A stretch of 43,973 nt of DNA from an uncultured Eubacteriales bacterium (GTDB lineage Bacteria > Bacillota > Clostridia > Saccharofermentanales > UBA5734). Positions 1,855 through 28,268 of this stretch are shown one piece after another. How positions within the stretch are numbered: the stretch's first letter is position 1; each line of letters starts with the position of its first letter. The notes beneath the pieces were generated by a model that did no database searches, was not told the DNA's origin, and worked only from the letters and a program-made list of their open reading frames with translations. Position numbers and translations under genes: made by a program. The stretch is taken from NCBI GenBank assembly GCA_903835065.1, contig CAILLO010000035.1:1-43973 (forward strand), written 5' to 3'.

Positions 1855-3641
1855 TGGCGACGGCGGGCACGACGGGCGAATCCGGAGCGTCGGTCCCGAC
1901 GCCGATCCGCATCGCCCGCTCCATCACGCTGCCGACCTACCAGCTGCGCGCAGCCGTGTACGCCCCGGCGCTGCCGGCCGACCGTCAGATGGAAGCGGCC
2001 GTGCGCATCACCTTGCGTTGGGTCTCGGAGAAGCTGCCCATGGAGGTCTGCGGACTCGAGGAAATGCCCAACCCCTTCCGCCTGGAAGTCGACCCCGGCA
2101 CTTTCGTGGAGACGGTGTGGAAGGCCTCGACGAAAATCTGGGCCATGCGTCTCGTCCACCCCGACACCGGAGACGTCCGAGCACCGGTCGCAGGTCGCAC
2201 ATTCACCACGCACGTCTCCTTCATGGAGCGCAGCGGGGCCGTCGAAGTCGCCGTCCAGACCCTCTGCACCCAGCCTACGGGTGCGGCTCGGGACGTGGAC
2301 GTCGTGCGACCCGCACTGGTCTCGCGCCTGGCGAAGGAACTCGGATTGCGCGACGTGCTTCCTCTGGACGGGAAGCCGGTCGCATGCTCGAGGGACGAGG
2401 ACGCGACGGATCTCCGTGCGCTGCTCCGGAATCCGCACAGGTCGCTGCCCGTCGTCGTGTTCCGGAGCGTTCCGCCGCCCTGCCCGCCGCCGCCCTGTCC
2501 TCCCTCCGAATGCAGGGAAGAGGCCGTCGTACCGGTAGCGGAAACCATACCGGTTCTGGACCCGTGCAGGAATCTCGACACGGAATTCCTGGCTGAGAAA
2601 CTCCTGGGCTATGCGGTCGTCGTCCACTTGAGGGGTGTGGCTGCCGAAGCCTTCCCTCAGAAGGTTCCGGCCGAGTTCCGCGTCGACTCGGGCGGAGTCC
2701 GCGTCTACCAGCCCGGGATGGACGAGTGGAAGACCGAGTCTGCAGAACGCCACCCGCGCTTTCCCGAGGAAAGCATTCGCTACTGGAGCGCTGTGGGAAC
2801 AGACGGCTGCATCCGCAGCGGGCCGGCCGCCTTTGCAGAATACCTGGTCCGCCTGGTACGGTCCGGGATGGCCCAGAGAACCGTCGATTGGCGCGGGGTC
2901 CTGCAGTTCCCCGCCGTCTTCGATGCGTTTCTCGAAGAGCGTCAGGACAACATCGGCCCGGACGATTGCCGCGACTGCCATGGCCACTACGAGACGCGCA
3001 TCGCTGCCCTGCGGGACGAGATCGAGCGGCTCGAATCCGAAAACGAATACTTCGTGGACGAAGCGGGCCATGCCGAAAGCGAAGCGACCCTCCTGCGGCA
3101 GGACCGCTTCCTGCTCGAGGAGAGGGTCGCCCGGCTGATCGCCGAGCTCGACGGGCGGGACGTGCCCGACGGCGCCGCGGAGCACCTGCCCGAGAGGATC
3201 TTCGACGTGCCCGACTGGGCGAGGGCCCGGCTGGGTCGGCGGCTGATGCTGCTGCCGCGGGCCGTGCGCGAACTGAAGGGCGGGGATTTCGAGGATGTTC
3301 CGTTGCTCTGCGAAGCGTTGAAGCTGCTCGCCCAGGACTATTACGACATGCAGGTGGGGAATCTGCGCGTCGCGGAGTTCACGGACCGCGTCCGCGCGCT
3401 GGGCCTCACCTGGGGGCAGAGCACGGACGAGACCCAGGCCGGCCGCTACGGGGAGGCCTATTACGTGCAGTATCCCCTCCAGCAGGGGCGGGGACGCCGC
3501 ACCTTCCTGCAGCAGCACCTGCGGAAGGGGACGTCCTTCGAGTCGAAGCACTGCCTGCGGATCTACTTCTTCTGGGGCGAAGAGGACCAGAAGGTGGTCG
3601 TCGGGTCCCTGCCGAAGCACCTGCCCAGCGCCGCGGACTGA
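1854..3641 (+). CDS. uncharacterised 595-residue multidomain protein, possibly defence-related
   Basis: The function is not recognised. The ATG overlaps the glf stop by one base, so translation is probably coupled. Visible parts: an alpha/beta N-terminal region (~20-200); a Cys/Pro hinge (~207-220) with Cys at 210, 215 and 220; a second globular region (~240-360) with a GGVRVYQPGMD segment; a C-x2-C-x-H cluster at 372-377; a charged coiled coil (~378-435); and a C-terminal module (~540-595) with a CLRIYFFW strand and a VVVGSLPKHLP tail. The last module has the general look of a RelE/HigB-like fold, but that is inference from pattern only. Long coiled-coil proteins with such tails occur in accessory genes, so a conflict or defence role is possible. 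Codon usage is GC-rich like the neighbours, though slightly less uniform. Confidence 0.8.
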   Translation: MATAGTTGESGASVPTPIRIARSITLPTYQLRAAVYAPALPADRQMEAAVRITLRWVSEKLPMEVCGLEEMPNPFRLEVDPGTFVETVWKASTKIWAMRLVHPDTGDVRAPVAGRTFTTHVSFMERSGAVEVAVQTLCTQPTGAARDVDVVRPALVSRLAKELGLRDVLPLDGKPVACSRDEDATDLRALLRNPHRSLPVVVFRSVPPPCPPPPCPPSECREEAVVPVAETIPVLDPCRNLDTEFLAEKLLGYAVVVHLRGVAAEAFPQKVPAEFRVDSGGVRVYQPGMDEWKTESAERHPRFPEESIRYWSAVGTDGCIRSGPAAFAEYLVRLVRSGMAQRTVDWRGVLQFPAVFDAFLEERQDNIGPDDCRDCHGHYETRIAALRDEIERLESENEYFVDEAGHAESEATLLRQDRFLLEERVARLIAELDGRDVPDGAAEHLPERIFDVPDWARARLGRRLMLLPRAVRELKGGDFEDVPLLCEALKLLAQDYYDMQVGNLRVAEFTDRVRALGLTWGQSTDETQAGRYGEAYYVQYPLQQGRGRRTFLQQHLRKGTSFESKHCLRIYFFWGEEDQKVVVGSLPKHLPSAAD

Positions 3642-3649
3642 TCCTGGCG

Positions 3650-3850
3650 CCGGTTCCGGGGCGGAGACGAGGCCGGTTCCTCCGGGCGGAGGGGCCGGCC
3701 TTCGCACGTCCTGGAGAAGGCCGAAGGCGAGCCCGACCACGACGGCGTGCACGGCCAGGAAGACGCCCGAGACGACCATGAGCGTGCAGGTTGGTCAGGA
3801 CCAGGGCGGCGAGCATGGGCAGAAGAGGAAGAGCAGACCGAGACCGCTCC
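3650..3850 (-). pseudogene. possible remnant of a membrane-protein gene
   Basis: The 344-bp gap between the unknown protein and pstS has no intact gene. On the minus strand three hydrophobic runs follow one another in three different frames: GLGLLFLF near 3845-3822, MLAALVLTNLHAHG near 3816-3776, and VVSGVFLAVHAVVVGLAFGLL near 3776-3714, followed by a Pro-rich tail. This is what a frameshifted two- or three-helix membrane protein would look like. Reverse-strand readings of GC-rich DNA often give Val/Ala/Leu, so the call is weak. Confidence 0.22.
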
Positions 3851-3888
3851 CCCTGGGGAATCCTCGCTCGCCTCCACCAATGTACCGA

Positions 3889-3943
3889 TTTTACCTGTCC
3901 CTTACATGGATTCCATCCATCCTTAACAGTCGGGCGATACGAT
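3889..3943 (+). promoter_or_regulatory. candidate Pho box and promoter of pstSCA
   Basis: TTAC at 3891-3894 and TTAC at 3902-3905 form a direct repeat with an 11-bp period, the period of PhoP/PhoB half-sites; a further TTAACA lies at 3923-3928. A TACGAT -10-like hexamer is at 3938-3943. The same TTAC-N7-TTAC arrangement precedes pstB at 37711. Regulation by the PhoB/PhoR pair at 39359-41910 is inferred. Confidence 0.5.
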
Positions 3944-3985
3944 GGAACCAGAACGAAGGAAATCCATGAAGGAGGACACCAGAAC

Positions 3986-4849
3986 ATGTTCGCACGCAAG
4001 AATCTCGCCCTCGCAGGCACCCTGCTCCTCGCCGCCGCGTTGCTGCTCGCCGGCTGCACGCCGGCTCCGTCCGCCACTTCCGCCTCCGTCTCCGGCACCC
4101 TCCTCGTCGTCGGCTCCTCCGCCCTCCAGCCCCTCGCCCAGAAGGCCTCCGAGCTCTTCGCCGTCGCGAACCCCGACGCCACGGTCACCGTCCAGGGCGG
4201 CGGCAGCGGCACCGGCCTGACCCAGGTCGCCTCGGGCACCTGCGACATCGGCGATTCCGACGTGTTCGCCGCGGAGAAGCTCGACGCCGCGACCGCCGCG
4301 ACCCTCGTCGACCACAAGGTCTGCGTCGTCGGGTTCGCCGCCGTGGTCAGCCCGGACGTCACCGTCACCTCCCTGACCCAGCAACAGCTCATCGACATCT
4401 TCACCGGCAAGACCACGAACTGGAAGGACGTCGGCGGCGCCGACGAGAAGATCGTCCTGATCAACCGTCCCGCGTCCTCCGGAACGCGCGCCGCCTTCAA
4501 GAAGTACGCCCTGAACGGCGCCGAGGAAGCGACCGGCGTGGCCCTGACCGAGGACTCCTCCGGCACCGTCCGCTCGACCGTCGCCGGCACGCCCGGCTCC
4601 ATCTCCTACCTCGCCTTCTCCTACCTCGACTCCTCCATCAAGGCCCTCTCCTTCGACGGTGTCGCGCCGACCGCCGCCAACGTCGCCGCCGGCACCTACG
4701 GCATCTGGTCCTACGAGCACATGTACACCAAGGGCGAAGCCACGGGCGTCGCGGCGGCCTTCATCGTCTACATGACCGGCGACGCTTTCAAGGCCAGCAT
4801 CTCCAGTCTCGGCTACATCCCGATCTCCGACATGGCGGTCTCCCGCTAG
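3986..4849 (+). CDS. pstS: phosphate ABC transporter substrate-binding lipoprotein PstS
   Basis: This is the extracellular phosphate receptor of the high-affinity Pst importer, tethered to the membrane by lipid. The 287-residue chain begins with a signal peptide and lipobox LLAGC, giving a lipidated Cys at residue 24. Phosphate-contact motifs are visible: VVGSSALQPLA near the mature N-terminus, GGGSGTGLTQV, and RPASSGTRAAF. The ATG at 3986 is preceded by GGAGG. The gene opens the pstS-pstC-pstA operon, with 33 nt to pstC. The ATPase gene pstB is not downstream as usual but at 37836. Expression under phosphate limitation is suggested by the upstream TTAC repeat. Confidence 0.95.
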   Translation: MFARKNLALAGTLLLAAALLLAGCTPAPSATSASVSGTLLVVGSSALQPLAQKASELFAVANPDATVTVQGGGSGTGLTQVASGTCDIGDSDVFAAEKLDAATAATLVDHKVCVVGFAAVVSPDVTVTSLTQQQLIDIFTGKTTNWKDVGGADEKIVLINRPASSGTRAAFKKYALNGAEEATGVALTEDSSGTVRSTVAGTPGSISYLAFSYLDSSIKALSFDGVAPTAANVAAGTYGIWSYEHMYTKGEATGVAAAFIVYMTGDAFKASISSLGYIPISDMAVSR

Positions 4850-4882
4850 AAGGATCCGAAACCTCGCCGACAGGAGGGAACC

Positions 4883-5803
4883 ATGCCGAATCCGATGGCC
4901 AGGAAGACCCTGGGACGCATCAATCGGACCTACTGGAAGCACGAAGGACTCGGCCGAGCCACCGTCACGGTGGCCGGCCTCTTCCTTTCGGTCCTGACGC
5001 TGCTCATGGCGGGCTTCCTCGCGGTCAAGGGGCTGTCGACCTTTCTGGTCGACCACCGCTCGCCCCTCGAATTCCTCTTCTCGACGAAGTGGAGTCCCGA
5101 CGCCGACACGCCCGCGTTCGGCGCCCTGATCTTCATCGTCGGCTCGATCCTGCTCTCGACGCTGGCGCTGCTTATCAGCACGCCCTTCAGCCTCTCCACG
5201 GCCGTGTTCGTGTCGGAGATCTCCCCGGACCTCGGACGCAATATCCTCCAGCCGGCCATCGAGATCTTCGTGGGCATCCCGTCGGTCGTCTACGGCTGGA
5301 TCGGGCTGTCCGTCCTCGTCCCGTTCCTCCGGAAGTCGTTCGGCGGTCTCGGATTCAGCCTCCTTGCGGGCTCGCTCGTCCTCGCGCTCATGATCTTCCC
5401 GACGATCGCGAGCCTGTCCGCCGACGCGTTCCGCGCCCTCCCGGCCGACTTCCGGGAGGCCTCCTACGCCCTCGGGGCGACCCGCTGGCAGACGATCCGC
5501 AAGGTCCTGCTGCCCGCCGCGATGCCCGGCATCCTGACCGGCGTCGTCCTCGGTCTGGCGCGCGCCTTCGGCGAAGCGCTCGCCGTCCAGATGGTCATCG
5601 GCAACATGATTCGCATCCCCGGCAAACTGACGGACGCGACCGTCAACCTCACCAGCATCATCACGATGGACATGGGCAACACCGCCATGGGCACGCCCTG
5701 GAACGACGTCCTGTGGACGATGGCCCTGCTGCTGCTCCTGATCTCGTTCCTCTTCATCGTGCTGGCCCGCATGACAGGGCGGAAGCGGAGGGCCGTCCGA
5801 TGA
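4883..5803 (+). CDS. pstC: phosphate ABC transporter permease PstC
   Basis: This is one of the two membrane-spanning subunits of the Pst phosphate importer. At 306 residues it has the usual length. A first hydrophobic helix (~27-55) follows a basic cytoplasmic N-terminus, then comes the permease core, including the EAA loop (EASYALGATRWQTIRKVLLP) that docks onto PstB. The ATG at 4883 has AGGAGG 6 nt upstream. The stop overlaps the pstA start (ATGA), so the two permeases are translationally coupled, in keeping with their 1:1 assembly. Confidence 0.95.
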   Translation: MPNPMARKTLGRINRTYWKHEGLGRATVTVAGLFLSVLTLLMAGFLAVKGLSTFLVDHRSPLEFLFSTKWSPDADTPAFGALIFIVGSILLSTLALLISTPFSLSTAVFVSEISPDLGRNILQPAIEIFVGIPSVVYGWIGLSVLVPFLRKSFGGLGFSLLAGSLVLALMIFPTIASLSADAFRALPADFREASYALGATRWQTIRKVLLPAAMPGILTGVVLGLARAFGEALAVQMVIGNMIRIPGKLTDATVNLTSIITMDMGNTAMGTPWNDVLWTMALLLLLISFLFIVLARMTGRKRRAVR

Positions 5804-22130: not shown

Positions 22131-22388
22131 ATGGAGAAGAAGGTCATCGTCGTCGGCGCGGGCGTGTCGAGGCTCGCCTCGGCCGTCCGCCCGCGCCCGA
22201 CGCTGCTGCAGGGCAACGACTTCCGCCCGCCGTGCCGTTCCCGCACCTGCCGAGGCCTCTACTTCGCGGGGGCGAGCGTGCACCTCGGTGCCGGCGTGCC
22301 GATTGCGCCGGCATCCGCACAGCTGGCCGTCGGTGAAATCCTCCGCGACGACCGTACGAAGGGGAAGGGAGGGACCCGCCTTGGCTGA
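22131..22388 (+). pseudogene. internally deleted phytoene desaturase (crtI) remnant
   Basis: The 85-codon frame has the ends of a CrtI-type carotenoid desaturase without the middle. The N-terminus KKVIVVGAGVSRLASAV is the FAD Rossmann start, with Arg in place of the third Gly. The C-terminal half, GLYFAGASVHLGAGVPIAPASAQ, is the conserved C-terminal FAD motif, usually ASVHPGAGVP. Full enzymes have about 490 residues, so roughly 400 are missing. GGAGGAGG still precedes the ATG, and the frame overlaps the start of the downstream squalene/phytoene synthase by 8 nt. The frame is open, so a small protein could be made, but it cannot be a working desaturase. Confidence 0.8.
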
Positions 22389-23259
22389 GAAGCGGCTCCC
22401 CGGCTCCGCACCTGCGGACGCATCTCCCGCGGACGCCTCGCTGGCCGACGACCTCCGTTGGTGCGAGTCGCTGACCGAGCGCCACTCGATGTCCTTTCAT
22501 TTCGCCTTCCGCAGGCTGCCGCTCGAGAAGGCGCAGGCGGTGTGGGCCGTGTACGCCTTCTGCCGGCTCTTCGACGACGCCGTGGATACGCCCGTCGAGC
22601 CGGAGGCCTTCGAGATCCTCTGCATGCAGTGGCGGCGCTACCGCGGCGGGGAGACCCCGAATTCGCACATGTGGCGAGCCCTGCGCTGGGCCTCGGGCAG
22701 GTTCGGGCTGGACGAAGCGCCCTTCCGCGAACTCGTCGACGGCCTCGCTTCGGACCGCGATTTCCGGCAGCCCGAGGACGATGCCGCTCTCTATCGGTAC
22801 TGCCACCGGATGGCGGGAACAGTCGGTCTCATGCTGCTTCCGATCCTGGCCACGCATGGACGGGAAGCCCTTCGGGAGACCGCCGTCCGGCTGGGCGACG
22901 CGATGCAGCTGACCAGCATCCTCCGCGACGTCGGCGAGGATCTGCGGATGGGCCGGATCTATCTGTCGGCCGCGCGGATGGAGGAGGCCGGCGTGACGGC
23001 GTCCGACCTCGCGACGGGGCAGGCGTCGGCGGCGTTCCGCGCGCTGTGGGAAGGGTACGCGAAGACCGCCGAAAGCTGGTACGAGGAGTTCCTCGGCTCC
23101 GTCCGCCTCTATGACGCGGACTCCCGGAAATCCTTGCGCGTATCCGCGAAGGTGTATCGTGCGATTCTTCAGGAAGTGCGGCGCCACGGGTATGATTGCC
23201 TGAAACGTCGGAACTCCGTGCCGAAGTGGCGGAAGTGCCTGGTCGCCCTGGGAGGTTGA
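22381..23259 (+). CDS. crtB: squalene/phytoene synthase family protein
   Basis: Enzymes of this family join two prenyl diphosphates head-to-head to make phytoene (C40), squalene or dehydrosqualene (C30). The 292-residue protein shows SFHFAFRRLP, the first aspartate motif DDAVD at 65-69 and the second, DAMQLTSILRDVGED at 173-187. It resembles the short CrtM/CrtB form. Translation probably begins at the TTG at 22381, 8 nt after GGGAGGG; no closer ATG exists before the conserved part. The crtI partner directly upstream is a remnant, so the product may not be desaturated locally. The gene downstream (6-bp gap) encodes a polyprenol/phytol kinase-like fusion, suggesting a prenyl-lipid cluster. Chain length of the product cannot be told from sequence. 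Confidence 0.9.
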   Translation: MAEKRLPGSAPADASPADASLADDLRWCESLTERHSMSFHFAFRRLPLEKAQAVWAVYAFCRLFDDAVDTPVEPEAFEILCMQWRRYRGGETPNSHMWRALRWASGRFGLDEAPFRELVDGLASDRDFRQPEDDAALYRYCHRMAGTVGLMLLPILATHGREALRETAVRLGDAMQLTSILRDVGEDLRMGRIYLSAARMEEAGVTASDLATGQASAAFRALWEGYAKTAESWYEEFLGSVRLYDADSRKSLRVSAKVYRAILQEVRRHGYDCLKRRNSVPKWRKCLVALGG

Positions 23260-23264
23260 GCCGC

Positions 23265-24725
23265 ATGAGTCCCTGGATCGGCATCGTCGTCTCGTTCGCC
23301 TACGTCTTCCTCGTGATCGGTCTGTCGACCGTGCTGCTGAAGCGTGGCCTGATCCAGGGCGAAGCCAGCCGGAAGATGGTCCACGTCCTCGTCTCGAACT
23401 GGTGGCTGATCGCGATGTGGGCGTTCTCGAGCCCCGTCTGGGCCGTCGTCGTGCCCGCGGCGTTCGTGGCGATCAACTACGCGTCCTATCGCTTCGGCAT
23501 CTTCAAGGCGATGGAGCGGGGCGGGGGACGGGAGGACTTCGGCACCGTCTGGTACGCCCTTTCGCTGCTGATCCTCGCCGCATGGACCTTCTCGTCCCCC
23601 TGCCGGCCCTGGGTGGGCGCCGTCGGCATCCTCGCCATGGGATACGGGGACGGATTCGCCGCGGTGGTGGGCAAGCGCTTCGGGAAGACCCGGTTCCCTG
23701 GCTCGAAGAAATCCTTCGAGGGCTCGGCCGTCCTGTTCGCCGCCGTTCTCGCGACGACCGCACTGGTGGCCGGCTTCTCCGGCGTCCCGTCGTCCGTTCT
23801 ACTGGCGCTCGCCGTTGCGGGCGCCGCCGTCGTGGTCGAACTGGTCACCCCGATGGGTTTCGACAACCTCACGGTGCCGCTGTCGTCCGCGGCGCTGGCC
23901 TGGCTGCTGTCGACGCACCCCGACCTGATCCCCTACGCGCTCGGCTTCGCGGCCAGCGCGGTGCTGATCCTGCCGGCCTTCGCGCGCGGCTCCCTGACGG
24001 CTCCGGCCAGCGCGGCCGCGATCCTGCTCGGCACGGCGGTGCAGTGGACCGGCGGCTGGGTGCCCTTCATCGCCCTCGGACTTTTCTTCGGCCCCGCGGT
24101 CCTGATCTCGAAGACGGGAAGCCGCCTCAAGGAGCCCGACGCGAAGGCCGTCCACCGCCGGACGGGCGCCCGCTCCGCCGTCCAGGTCCTCGCGAACGGC
24201 GGCCCCGCGCTGTTCTTCCTCGTGCTGTACGTCCTCGACCGCTCGCCGGTCTTCCTCGGCGGCGGACTCTGCGCCCTGTCGGCCGCCGGGGCCGACACCT
24301 GGTCCTCGGAGCTCGGCATGCTGAGCCGCAGAGGTCCGGTCTCGTTCCTGACGGGCAAGCCCGTCAGGCGCGGCATCTCCGGCGGCGTGACGACCCTCGG
24401 GTTCGTCGGCGCGCTGGTGGGCGCGGCGTTCGTCGCTCCGCTCGCCCTGTTCGTCGGACTTCCGCCGCTGAAGTCGATCCTGGCCGTCGTGGCGATCCTC
24501 GTCGCGGGCACGCTCGGGTCCTTGATCGACAGCCTCCTCGGCGACACGATGCAGGCGAAGTACCGGGACCCCCGGCGGGACGGCTGGACGGAGCGCACGG
24601 AAATCGACGGAGCCGCCCTCACGCTGGAGCGCGGCTTCGCCTGGATGGACAACGACCTGGTCAATGGGTTGAGTTCTCTCGTGGCGGGCGCCGCGGGGCT
24701 GGGACTGTTCGCGCTCCTGGCCTGA
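23265..24725 (+). CDS. phytol/dolichol kinase-like protein fused to a DUF92 (VTE6-like) domain
   Basis: The 486-residue integral membrane protein has two halves. The first (~1-210) resembles SEC59/VTE5 CTP-dependent dolichol or phytol kinases: EASRKMVHVLVSNWW, then MGYGDGFAAVVGKRFGKTRFPGSKKSFEG and VELVTPMGFDNLTVPL. The second (~225-486) is a DUF92 domain, with GADTWSSELGML, TGKPVRRGISGGVTTLG and GSLIDSLLGDTMQ. In plants VTE5 phosphorylates phytol and the DUF92 protein VTE6 phosphorylates phytyl-phosphate; a fusion could convert a prenol to its diphosphate in one protein. That activity here is inference. The ATG at 23265 follows GGGAGG, 5 nt after the synthase stop, so the two are almost certainly co-transcribed. 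Confidence 0.87.
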   Translation: MSPWIGIVVSFAYVFLVIGLSTVLLKRGLIQGEASRKMVHVLVSNWWLIAMWAFSSPVWAVVVPAAFVAINYASYRFGIFKAMERGGGREDFGTVWYALSLLILAAWTFSSPCRPWVGAVGILAMGYGDGFAAVVGKRFGKTRFPGSKKSFEGSAVLFAAVLATTALVAGFSGVPSSVLLALAVAGAAVVVELVTPMGFDNLTVPLSSAALAWLLSTHPDLIPYALGFAASAVLILPAFARGSLTAPASAAAILLGTAVQWTGGWVPFIALGLFFGPAVLISKTGSRLKEPDAKAVHRRTGARSAVQVLANGGPALFFLVLYVLDRSPVFLGGGLCALSAAGADTWSSELGMLSRRGPVSFLTGKPVRRGISGGVTTLGFVGALVGAAFVAPLALFVGLPPLKSILAVVAILVAGTLGSLIDSLLGDTMQAKYRDPRRDGWTERTEIDGAALTLERGFAWMDNDLVNGLSSLVAGAAGLGLFALLA

Positions 24726-26993: not shown

Positions 26994-28268
26994 GTGGACG
27001 TGATCGAGAAGCTCGCGGTCCTGGGCGATGCCGCCCGGTTCGACGTGGCCTGCACCTCCAGCGGCAGCGAGCGGTCGGCCTCGTCGGGCGCCGGAGTCGG
27101 CAGTACCGTGGCCGGCGGGATCTGCCACACCTGGACCGACGACGGGCGCTGCATTTCGTTGCTCAAGGTCCTCCTGACCAACCACTGCGACTACGACTGC
27201 GCCTATTGCCGCAACCGTTCGTCCAACGACGTGCCGCGCGCCGCCTTCCGCCCGGAGGAGCTCGCGATGCTCACGATCGAGTTCTACCGCCGCAACTACA
27301 TCGAAGGGCTGTTCCTGAGTTCTGGCGTGGTGCGAGACGCGGACCACACGATGGGCCTGATGATCGAGACGCTTCGTTTGCTGCGAGAAGTGCACCTCTT
27401 CCGCGGGTACGTGCACGTCAAGGTGATCCCCGGCGCTTCTCCGGAGGCCGTCGAGCGGATCGGCCGGCTCGCCGACCGCGTCAGCGTCAACGTCGAGCTG
27501 CCCTCGACGCGCTCCCTGCTGTCGCTCGCTCCCCAGAAGAAGCCGGCCGACATCGAGGCGCCCATGGCGTACATCGCGGACCGACGGTCCGCGAACCGCG
27601 AGGAGCTCGTCCGCTACCGCGGCGCTCCGACCTTCGCCCCGGCGGGGCAGAGCACCCAGCTGATCGTGGGCGCGACGCCGGACCGCGACGTGCAGATCCT
27701 GCGCCTGTCGAAGAACCTGTATTCGCGCTTCGACATGAAGCGCGTCTTCTTCTCCGCCTACATTCCGACGAACGCGCACCCGCTGCTGCCCGCCTTGACG
27801 TCCGCGCCGCCGCTGCTGCGCGAGCACCGCTTGTACCAGGCCGACTGGCTGATGCGGTTCTACCGGTTCGACGTCGAGGAGATCGTCGACTCGGGAAGCC
27901 CCGATCTCGACCTCGACCTCGACCCGAAGAGCGCCTGGGCGATGCGGCACCTCGACCGCTTTCCCGTGGACGTGAACCGCGCCGACTACGAGACGCTCCT
28001 GCGCGTTCCCGGGATCGGCGTGCTGTCCGCGCAGCGCGTCGTCGCGGCGCGCCGGCTCGGGCGCCTGCGGACGGAGGACCTGCGGCCGCTCGGAATCGTG
28101 ATGAAGCGTGCCCGCTTCTTCCTGACCGCCGCCGGCCGGTATGCGGCGGAACGGATCCCGCAGGCCGCGGAACTCCGCGTGCTGCTGGCCGACAAGTGCG
28201 GTCAGAAGGGGTATGCGCCGTTCCAGCTGCGGATCGAGGACCTGCCGGTCGTGGCGGAGGGGGCGTGA
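26994..28268 (+). CDS. putative DNA modification/repair radical SAM protein (TIGR03916-type)
   Basis: The 424-residue protein carries the radical SAM cluster motif C-x3-C-x2-C at Cys65, Cys69 and Cys72 (CDYDCAYC), which binds a [4Fe-4S] cluster and S-adenosylmethionine. A helix-hairpin-helix DNA-binding motif lies at about 325-355 (VDVNRADYETLLRVPGIG). The combination is that of the family described as radical SAM proteins linked to uracil-DNA glycosylases. The precise reaction is unknown. The GTG at 26994 follows AGGAGGG; no better start exists. Its stop overlaps the next gene (GTGA), which encodes the usual partner of this family. The LexA-like box upstream supports a role in DNA damage. 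Confidence 0.92.
   Translation: MDVIEKLAVLGDAARFDVACTSSGSERSASSGAGVGSTVAGGICHTWTDDGRCISLLKVLLTNHCDYDCAYCRNRSSNDVPRAAFRPEELAMLTIEFYRRNYIEGLFLSSGVVRDADHTMGLMIETLRLLREVHLFRGYVHVKVIPGASPEAVERIGRLADRVSVNVELPSTRSLLSLAPQKKPADIEAPMAYIADRRSANREELVRYRGAPTFAPAGQSTQLIVGATPDRDVQILRLSKNLYSRFDMKRVFFSAYIPTNAHPLLPALTSAPPLLREHRLYQADWLMRFYRFDVEEIVDSGSPDLDLDLDPKSAWAMRHLDRFPVDVNRADYETLLRVPGIGVLSAQRVVAARRLGRLRTEDLRPLGIVMKRARFFLTAAGRYAAERIPQAAELRVLLADKCGQKGYAPFQLRIEDLPVVAEGA

Follow-up and report, generated by a model that had tools for sequence, protein, structure and literature searches.

The window, that is, the whole stretch of 43,973 nucleotides analyzed here, belongs to a draft genome of 2.5 Mb (82 contigs, completeness of 98%) of an uncultured Eubacteriales bacterium. 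On its plus strand, a gene for a GGDEF-HD protein is followed by a frame of 85 codons (22131-22388), a gene for a head-to-head prenyl synthase of the crtB/crtM/hpnD type (22381-23259), and a gene of 486 codons (23265-24725) for a membrane protein that joins a SEC59/VTE5-like half (23265-23930) to a DUF92/VTE6-like half (23931-24725). A Shine-Dalgarno-like stretch is present before both the synthase gene and the fusion gene. The window also encodes, at 26994-28268, an ordinary member of the radical SAM family rSAM_link_UDG (TIGR03916, 595 bits).

A crtN remnant upstream of the synthase gene

The 85-codon frame was identified as a remnant of crtN, a gene of the phytoene/diapophytoene desaturase family. 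Its product of 85 residues does not constitute a complete FAD-dependent desaturase: CrtN residues 1-20 are joined in frame to residues 443-496, the middle ~422 codons (about 1.27 kb) are gone with a clean in-frame join, and Arg replaces the final Gly of the FAD motif. A profile built from eight related CrtN proteins matched two separate parts of the frame (12.3 and 56.3 bits), and the frame was also matched in an independent search and by PF01593 (E of 0.002). No intact crtN was found elsewhere in the host genome, where the best other CrtN match (25% identity) is a carotenoid-isomerase-like protein encoded at positions 3850-5304 of locus L046 (G000 contig 36; TIGR02730, 233 bits, below cut-off). 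The sister species contains no crtN either at the corresponding place or elsewhere in its genome, and since that genome likewise lacks the gene, the deletion is unlikely to be a pure assembly fault. The presence of the remnant upstream of the synthase gene indicates that the locus is derived from a carotenoid cluster. An earlier note on this DNA, made from the sequence alone, does not mention the remnant.

The prenyl synthase

The synthase reading frame begins with TTG and is preceded by GGAGGG. Its product matches PF00494 (SQS_PSY) with an E value of 3.9e-64 and 217 bits, well above the gathering score of 26, and has both Asp-rich motifs intact (DDAVD, residues 65-69, and DVGED, residues 183-187), which places it in the SQS_PSY family. 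The nearest solved structures are 5iys and CrtM. Among the product-type models, HpnD scored highest (198 bits, under its cut-off of 278.6), and no equivalog model was passed, HpnD, CrtB, and HpnC all matching under their own cut-offs. For this reason, the synthase cannot be assigned to squalene, dehydrosqualene, phytoene, or presqualene diphosphate as its product. Because crtN has been lost, the enzyme, if active, would be expected to yield an undesaturated hydrocarbon of C30 or C40. Residue 179 is Ser, while Asn is present in all eight other aligned synthases and in the three solved relatives shown; we take this position to correspond to N168, a metal ligand of CrtM.

The SEC59/VTE5-DUF92 fusion protein

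The long open reading frame of the fusion spans 23196-24725, and its likely start is the ATG at 23265, preceded by CTGGGAGGT and located 5 bp past the synthase stop. The encoded protein of 486 residues has a GRAVY of 0.77 and 10 hydrophobic segments. AlphaFold2 modelled the entire fusion with good confidence (pLDDT of 87.6). Since a Foldseek search with this entire model gave no significant match, the N-half was folded separately (pLDDT of 91.3). Sequence searches of the PDB with either half gave no match.

No Pfam model matched the first 222 residues. CTP_transf_1 (PF01148) matched one of 20 N-half homologues (4e-5) and gave no match with the N-half of the window itself. Dolichol kinases and other CTP-using enzymes carry the motif DxxAxxxGxxxGx8KKTxEG (PMC5853391), and residues 129-153 of the fusion (DGFAAVVGKRFGKTRFPGSKKSFEG) reproduce it almost exactly, with a spacer of 7 instead of 8 and Ser in place of Thr. 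In 20000 shuffles of the fusion protein, a loose form of this motif occurred once and the strict form never. D129, D200, and E192 are conserved, the two Asp residues in 36 or 37 of 37 sequences. The top PDB match of the N-half model was CdsA (Foldseek probability 0.96, E of 0.04); the corresponding superposition gave a Z of 7.2-7.6 and an rmsd of 5.3-5.5 with 163-165 residues aligned. The same model also resembled CarS (5guf; Z of 6.6, rmsd of 2.9, 28% identity over 91 aligned residues). Scores of this size can arise by chance between helical proteins. Distant VTE5-like proteins that are 25% identical to the N-half and have no DUF92 partner nearby were seen at four further loci (L041, L042, L043, and L044).

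The C-half matches DUF92 (PF01940) over fusion residues 230-474 with an E value of 1e-55 and 189 bits (cut-off of 27.5), and its D344 and D422 are present in 37 of 37 sequences. The C-half is thus a member of the DUF92/VTE6 family (COG1836), as judged by a PF01940 score above cut-off and two conserved Asp residues. With TIGR00297, the NCBIfam DUF92 model, it scored 87.8 bits, below the curated cut-off of 205.85, and therefore falls outside this narrow equivalog. Its model resembled CarS (Z of 7.9, rmsd of 3.6, 20% identity over 117 aligned residues) and CdsA (Z of 6.4). Sequence homology between the two halves was considered and rejected, as hhalign of their profiles yielded no alignment (probability of 2.3). 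It is only the folds, together with a published HHpred analysis in which SEC59-like and DUF92 domains both group with cytidylyltransferases (Makarova et al. 2015, PMC5898192), that point to a shared superfamily. Each model independently suggests a CTP-using lipid enzyme, with modest scores to which other helical proteins come close. The prediction of CTP-kinase chemistry for each half is supported by the motif, the conserved Asp residues, the folds, and the literature on VTE5 and VTE6. Two statements of the earlier note were borne out, namely that a phytol/dolichol-kinase-like half is joined to a DUF92 half (CTP motif, CdsA-like model, PF01940) and that the fusion adjoins a head-to-head prenyl synthase.

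Relatives and distribution of the cluster

Another genome from the genus (L002, contig 22 of G001) has the gene order synthase-fusion-mscL, as in the window. Since a fusion with 74% identity stands there beside a synthase with 64% identity, the pairing of the two genes is not due to chance. Relative to the sister species, the synthase gene has a dN/dS of about 0.34 and the fusion gene one of about 0.28, with frames intact in both, which shows that both genes are under purifying selection.

The four genes crtN, synthase, VTE5-like, and DUF92 occur as separate genes in five genomes of the same family, in a metagenome genome labelled Mollicutes (L003), and in three members of the class that belong to other families, crtN being immediately adjacent to the synthase gene in these relatives. 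In G027, the VTE5-like and DUF92 genes appear fused with one frameshift. Positions 3207-4645 of locus L039, adjoining crtN and crtB, read as a VTE5-DUF92 fusion with one frameshift, which may be real or an assembly error. The four separate genes of the relatives make it likely that the ancestral state near the window was a carotenoid cluster of the order crtN-crtB-VTE5-VTE6, and that in the genus of the window crtN was lost and the VTE5 and VTE6 genes merged into one. A tree of 37 VTE5-DUF92 pairs shows at least six switches between the fused and the separate state, with gain and loss not distinguishable, and such repeated joining or splitting supports a shared pathway for the two proteins.

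Two further gene contexts were noted. In G343, a tocopherol-cyclase-like protein (PF14249, E of 9e-16; L055, 10291-11268) is encoded directly after crtN-crtB-VTE5-DUF92, which is a hint of prenyl-lipid chemistry in such clusters. A second context recurs in two genomes of the class that lack crt genes: there, the paired or fused VTE5/DUF92 genes lie with genes for a DUF5685 protein and for a small peptidase resembling M50 (L056, 10246-13211, and L057, 1777-4626).

Among the 341 genomes of the class, DUF92 was found in seven and a synthase above cut-off in four, and in all four of the latter a DUF92 gene lies within 2 kb of the synthase gene (Fisher p of 6e-8) and the kinase pair adjoins it. In a sample of 398 genomes from the phylum, 46 have DUF92, 21 have the synthase, and eight have both (Fisher p of 0.001), the synthase gene being adjacent to DUF92 in only three of the 46. 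Out of 38 DUF92 loci from this sample, 16 are fusions and six are neighboring separate genes, while no VTE5-like half was detected nearby in another 16; only one of the 16 fusions stands beside a synthase gene. The kinase pair is therefore not dedicated to the synthase, yet it accompanies the synthase wherever the class of the window keeps it. The earlier note had linked the fusion to the synthase and had named a scattered distribution without prenyl synthases as evidence against its proposal. The link holds within the class, in the genomes of the same family, in the Mollicutes-labelled genome, and in G027, whereas across the phylum the distribution of the fusion as such partly agrees with that counter-evidence.

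Proposed function and alternatives

The conserved Asp residues, the CTP motif, and the CdsA/CarS-like folds make a kinase acting sequentially from prenol to diphosphate the best reading of the fusion. These findings led us to propose, with moderate confidence and by analogy, that the protein acts on isoprenoid alcohols as a membrane kinase with two CTP-using steps and feeds the prenyl diphosphate pool, from which the synthase would draw among others. The N-half would phosphorylate a prenol to its monophosphate, farnesol or geranylgeraniol being the likeliest substrate because of the neighboring synthase, and the C-half would phosphorylate this monophosphate once more; the resulting prenyl diphosphate would then enter the cell's own pool and supply the adjacent head-to-head synthase along with other users. 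We infer the reactions, their order, the substrate, and the delivery to the synthase, the reactions by analogy with VTE5, FOLK, DOLK, and VTE6.

The genome encodes DXS, IspH, an IspA-type prenyl synthase, and a longer prenyl synthase (both trans-), which excludes a dependence on salvage through a missing isoprenoid pathway, and recovered prenols would thus only supplement de novo synthesis. This bears on the prenol salvage unit of the earlier note, in which the fusion converts free prenols to the diphosphates used by the synthase: with de novo genes present, the synthase does not depend on salvage, whose role would be supplementary. A stricter form of that idea, appears to us unlikely: in one lineage of Bacillota, carotenoid or squalene-type synthesis would include a dedicated, fused two-step kinase for prenol recovery that channels its product to the adjacent synthase, and this unit would have survived the loss of the desaturase and would now make a colorless terpene out of recovered prenols.

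A general polyprenol kinase acting on another alcohol (undecaprenol, a dolichol-like alcohol, or environmental phytol), with the adjacency to the synthase being incidental or inherited, would agree with the frequent occurrence of the fusion or pair in the phylum without a synthase (15 of 16 fusions), with the varied gene neighbors found there, and with the clustering of uppS with archaeal DUF92 genes (PMC5898192). We consider this a possible but rather doubtful explanation, since clusters of four genes that include crtN and crtB are found repeatedly in several families of the class and the pair is adjacent in every genome of the class that has the synthase. Since the C-half model is closest to the CMP-transferring enzymes CarS and CdsA, the C-half could also be a cytidylyltransferase that takes a prenyl phosphate made by the N-half and converts it to a CDP-activated prenyl or lipid intermediate. 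Yet VTE6, a member of the same family, is described as a phytyl-phosphate kinase (PMC9782597) and no adjoining gene uses CDP-prenyl, which makes such a reaction quite improbable. It is even less probable that the locus is decaying, with crtN lost, the Asn-to-Ser change in the synthase, the cluster disappearing, and the terpene no longer made: the crtN scar with its broken FAD motif, S179 where aligned relatives have Asn, and the lower conservation of the synthase relative to its neighbors would fit, but the intact frames and low dN/dS of both genes, as well as the two intact Asp motifs of the synthase, argue against it.

A small bacterial protein with both predicted steps in a single chain would be a convenient system for assaying the two reactions, and the recurrent crtN-crtB-VTE5-VTE6 cluster provides genetic evidence that this enzyme pair serves users of C15/C20 prenyl diphosphates in Bacillota.

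Comparison with known systems

Prenol kinases have been difficult to pin down, and the few genes known come from plants and cyanobacteria (PMC9782597). Phytol is the substrate of VTE5, farnesol that of FOLK, and phytyl phosphate that of VTE6, CTP being the preferred donor (PMC9782597); two such successive phosphorylations are predicted for the window fusion, each half of which resembles these enzymes at the level of the family. The plant VTE5 and VTE6 are separate proteins feeding tocopherol and phylloquinone, whereas in the window a single protein stands beside a head-to-head synthase. Phytol-phosphate metabolism was also predicted for COG1836 by Gerdes et al. 2011 (PMC3223725). CdsA and CarS, the best solved-structure matches of both halves, are CTP:lipid-phosphate cytidylyltransferases that transfer CMP to phosphatidate, whereas VTE5/VTE6-type enzymes transfer phosphate.

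In the open-access literature, we found no report of a bacterial crtN-synthase-VTE5-VTE6 cluster, of repeated fusion, or of crtN loss, and no paper connecting crtN/crtM or presqualene diphosphate with VTE5/VTE6-type kinases. In the CrtN-CrtM/CrtB carotenoid clusters of Bacillota, crtN lies beside the synthase gene, as it does in the relatives of the window; unlike these clusters, the window has kinase genes after the synthase gene and crtN only as a scar. Archaeal proteins with a SEC59-like N-terminal and a DUF92 C-terminal domain (for example, Mbar_A3310; arCOG02245/COG1836) were described by Makarova et al. 2015, who proposed for them a kinase step in isoprenoid biosynthesis (PMC5898192). 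The central idea of the earlier note is therefore in part a rediscovery. The archaeal fusions share with that of the window the domain order, the cytidylyltransferase superfamily, and the kinase prediction, but they cluster with uppS, whereas the window fusion is found in Bacillota next to crtB and a crtN remnant. As far as found, it is this carotenoid-cluster arrangement that is new, the SEC59/VTE5-DUF92 fusion itself being known from archaea.
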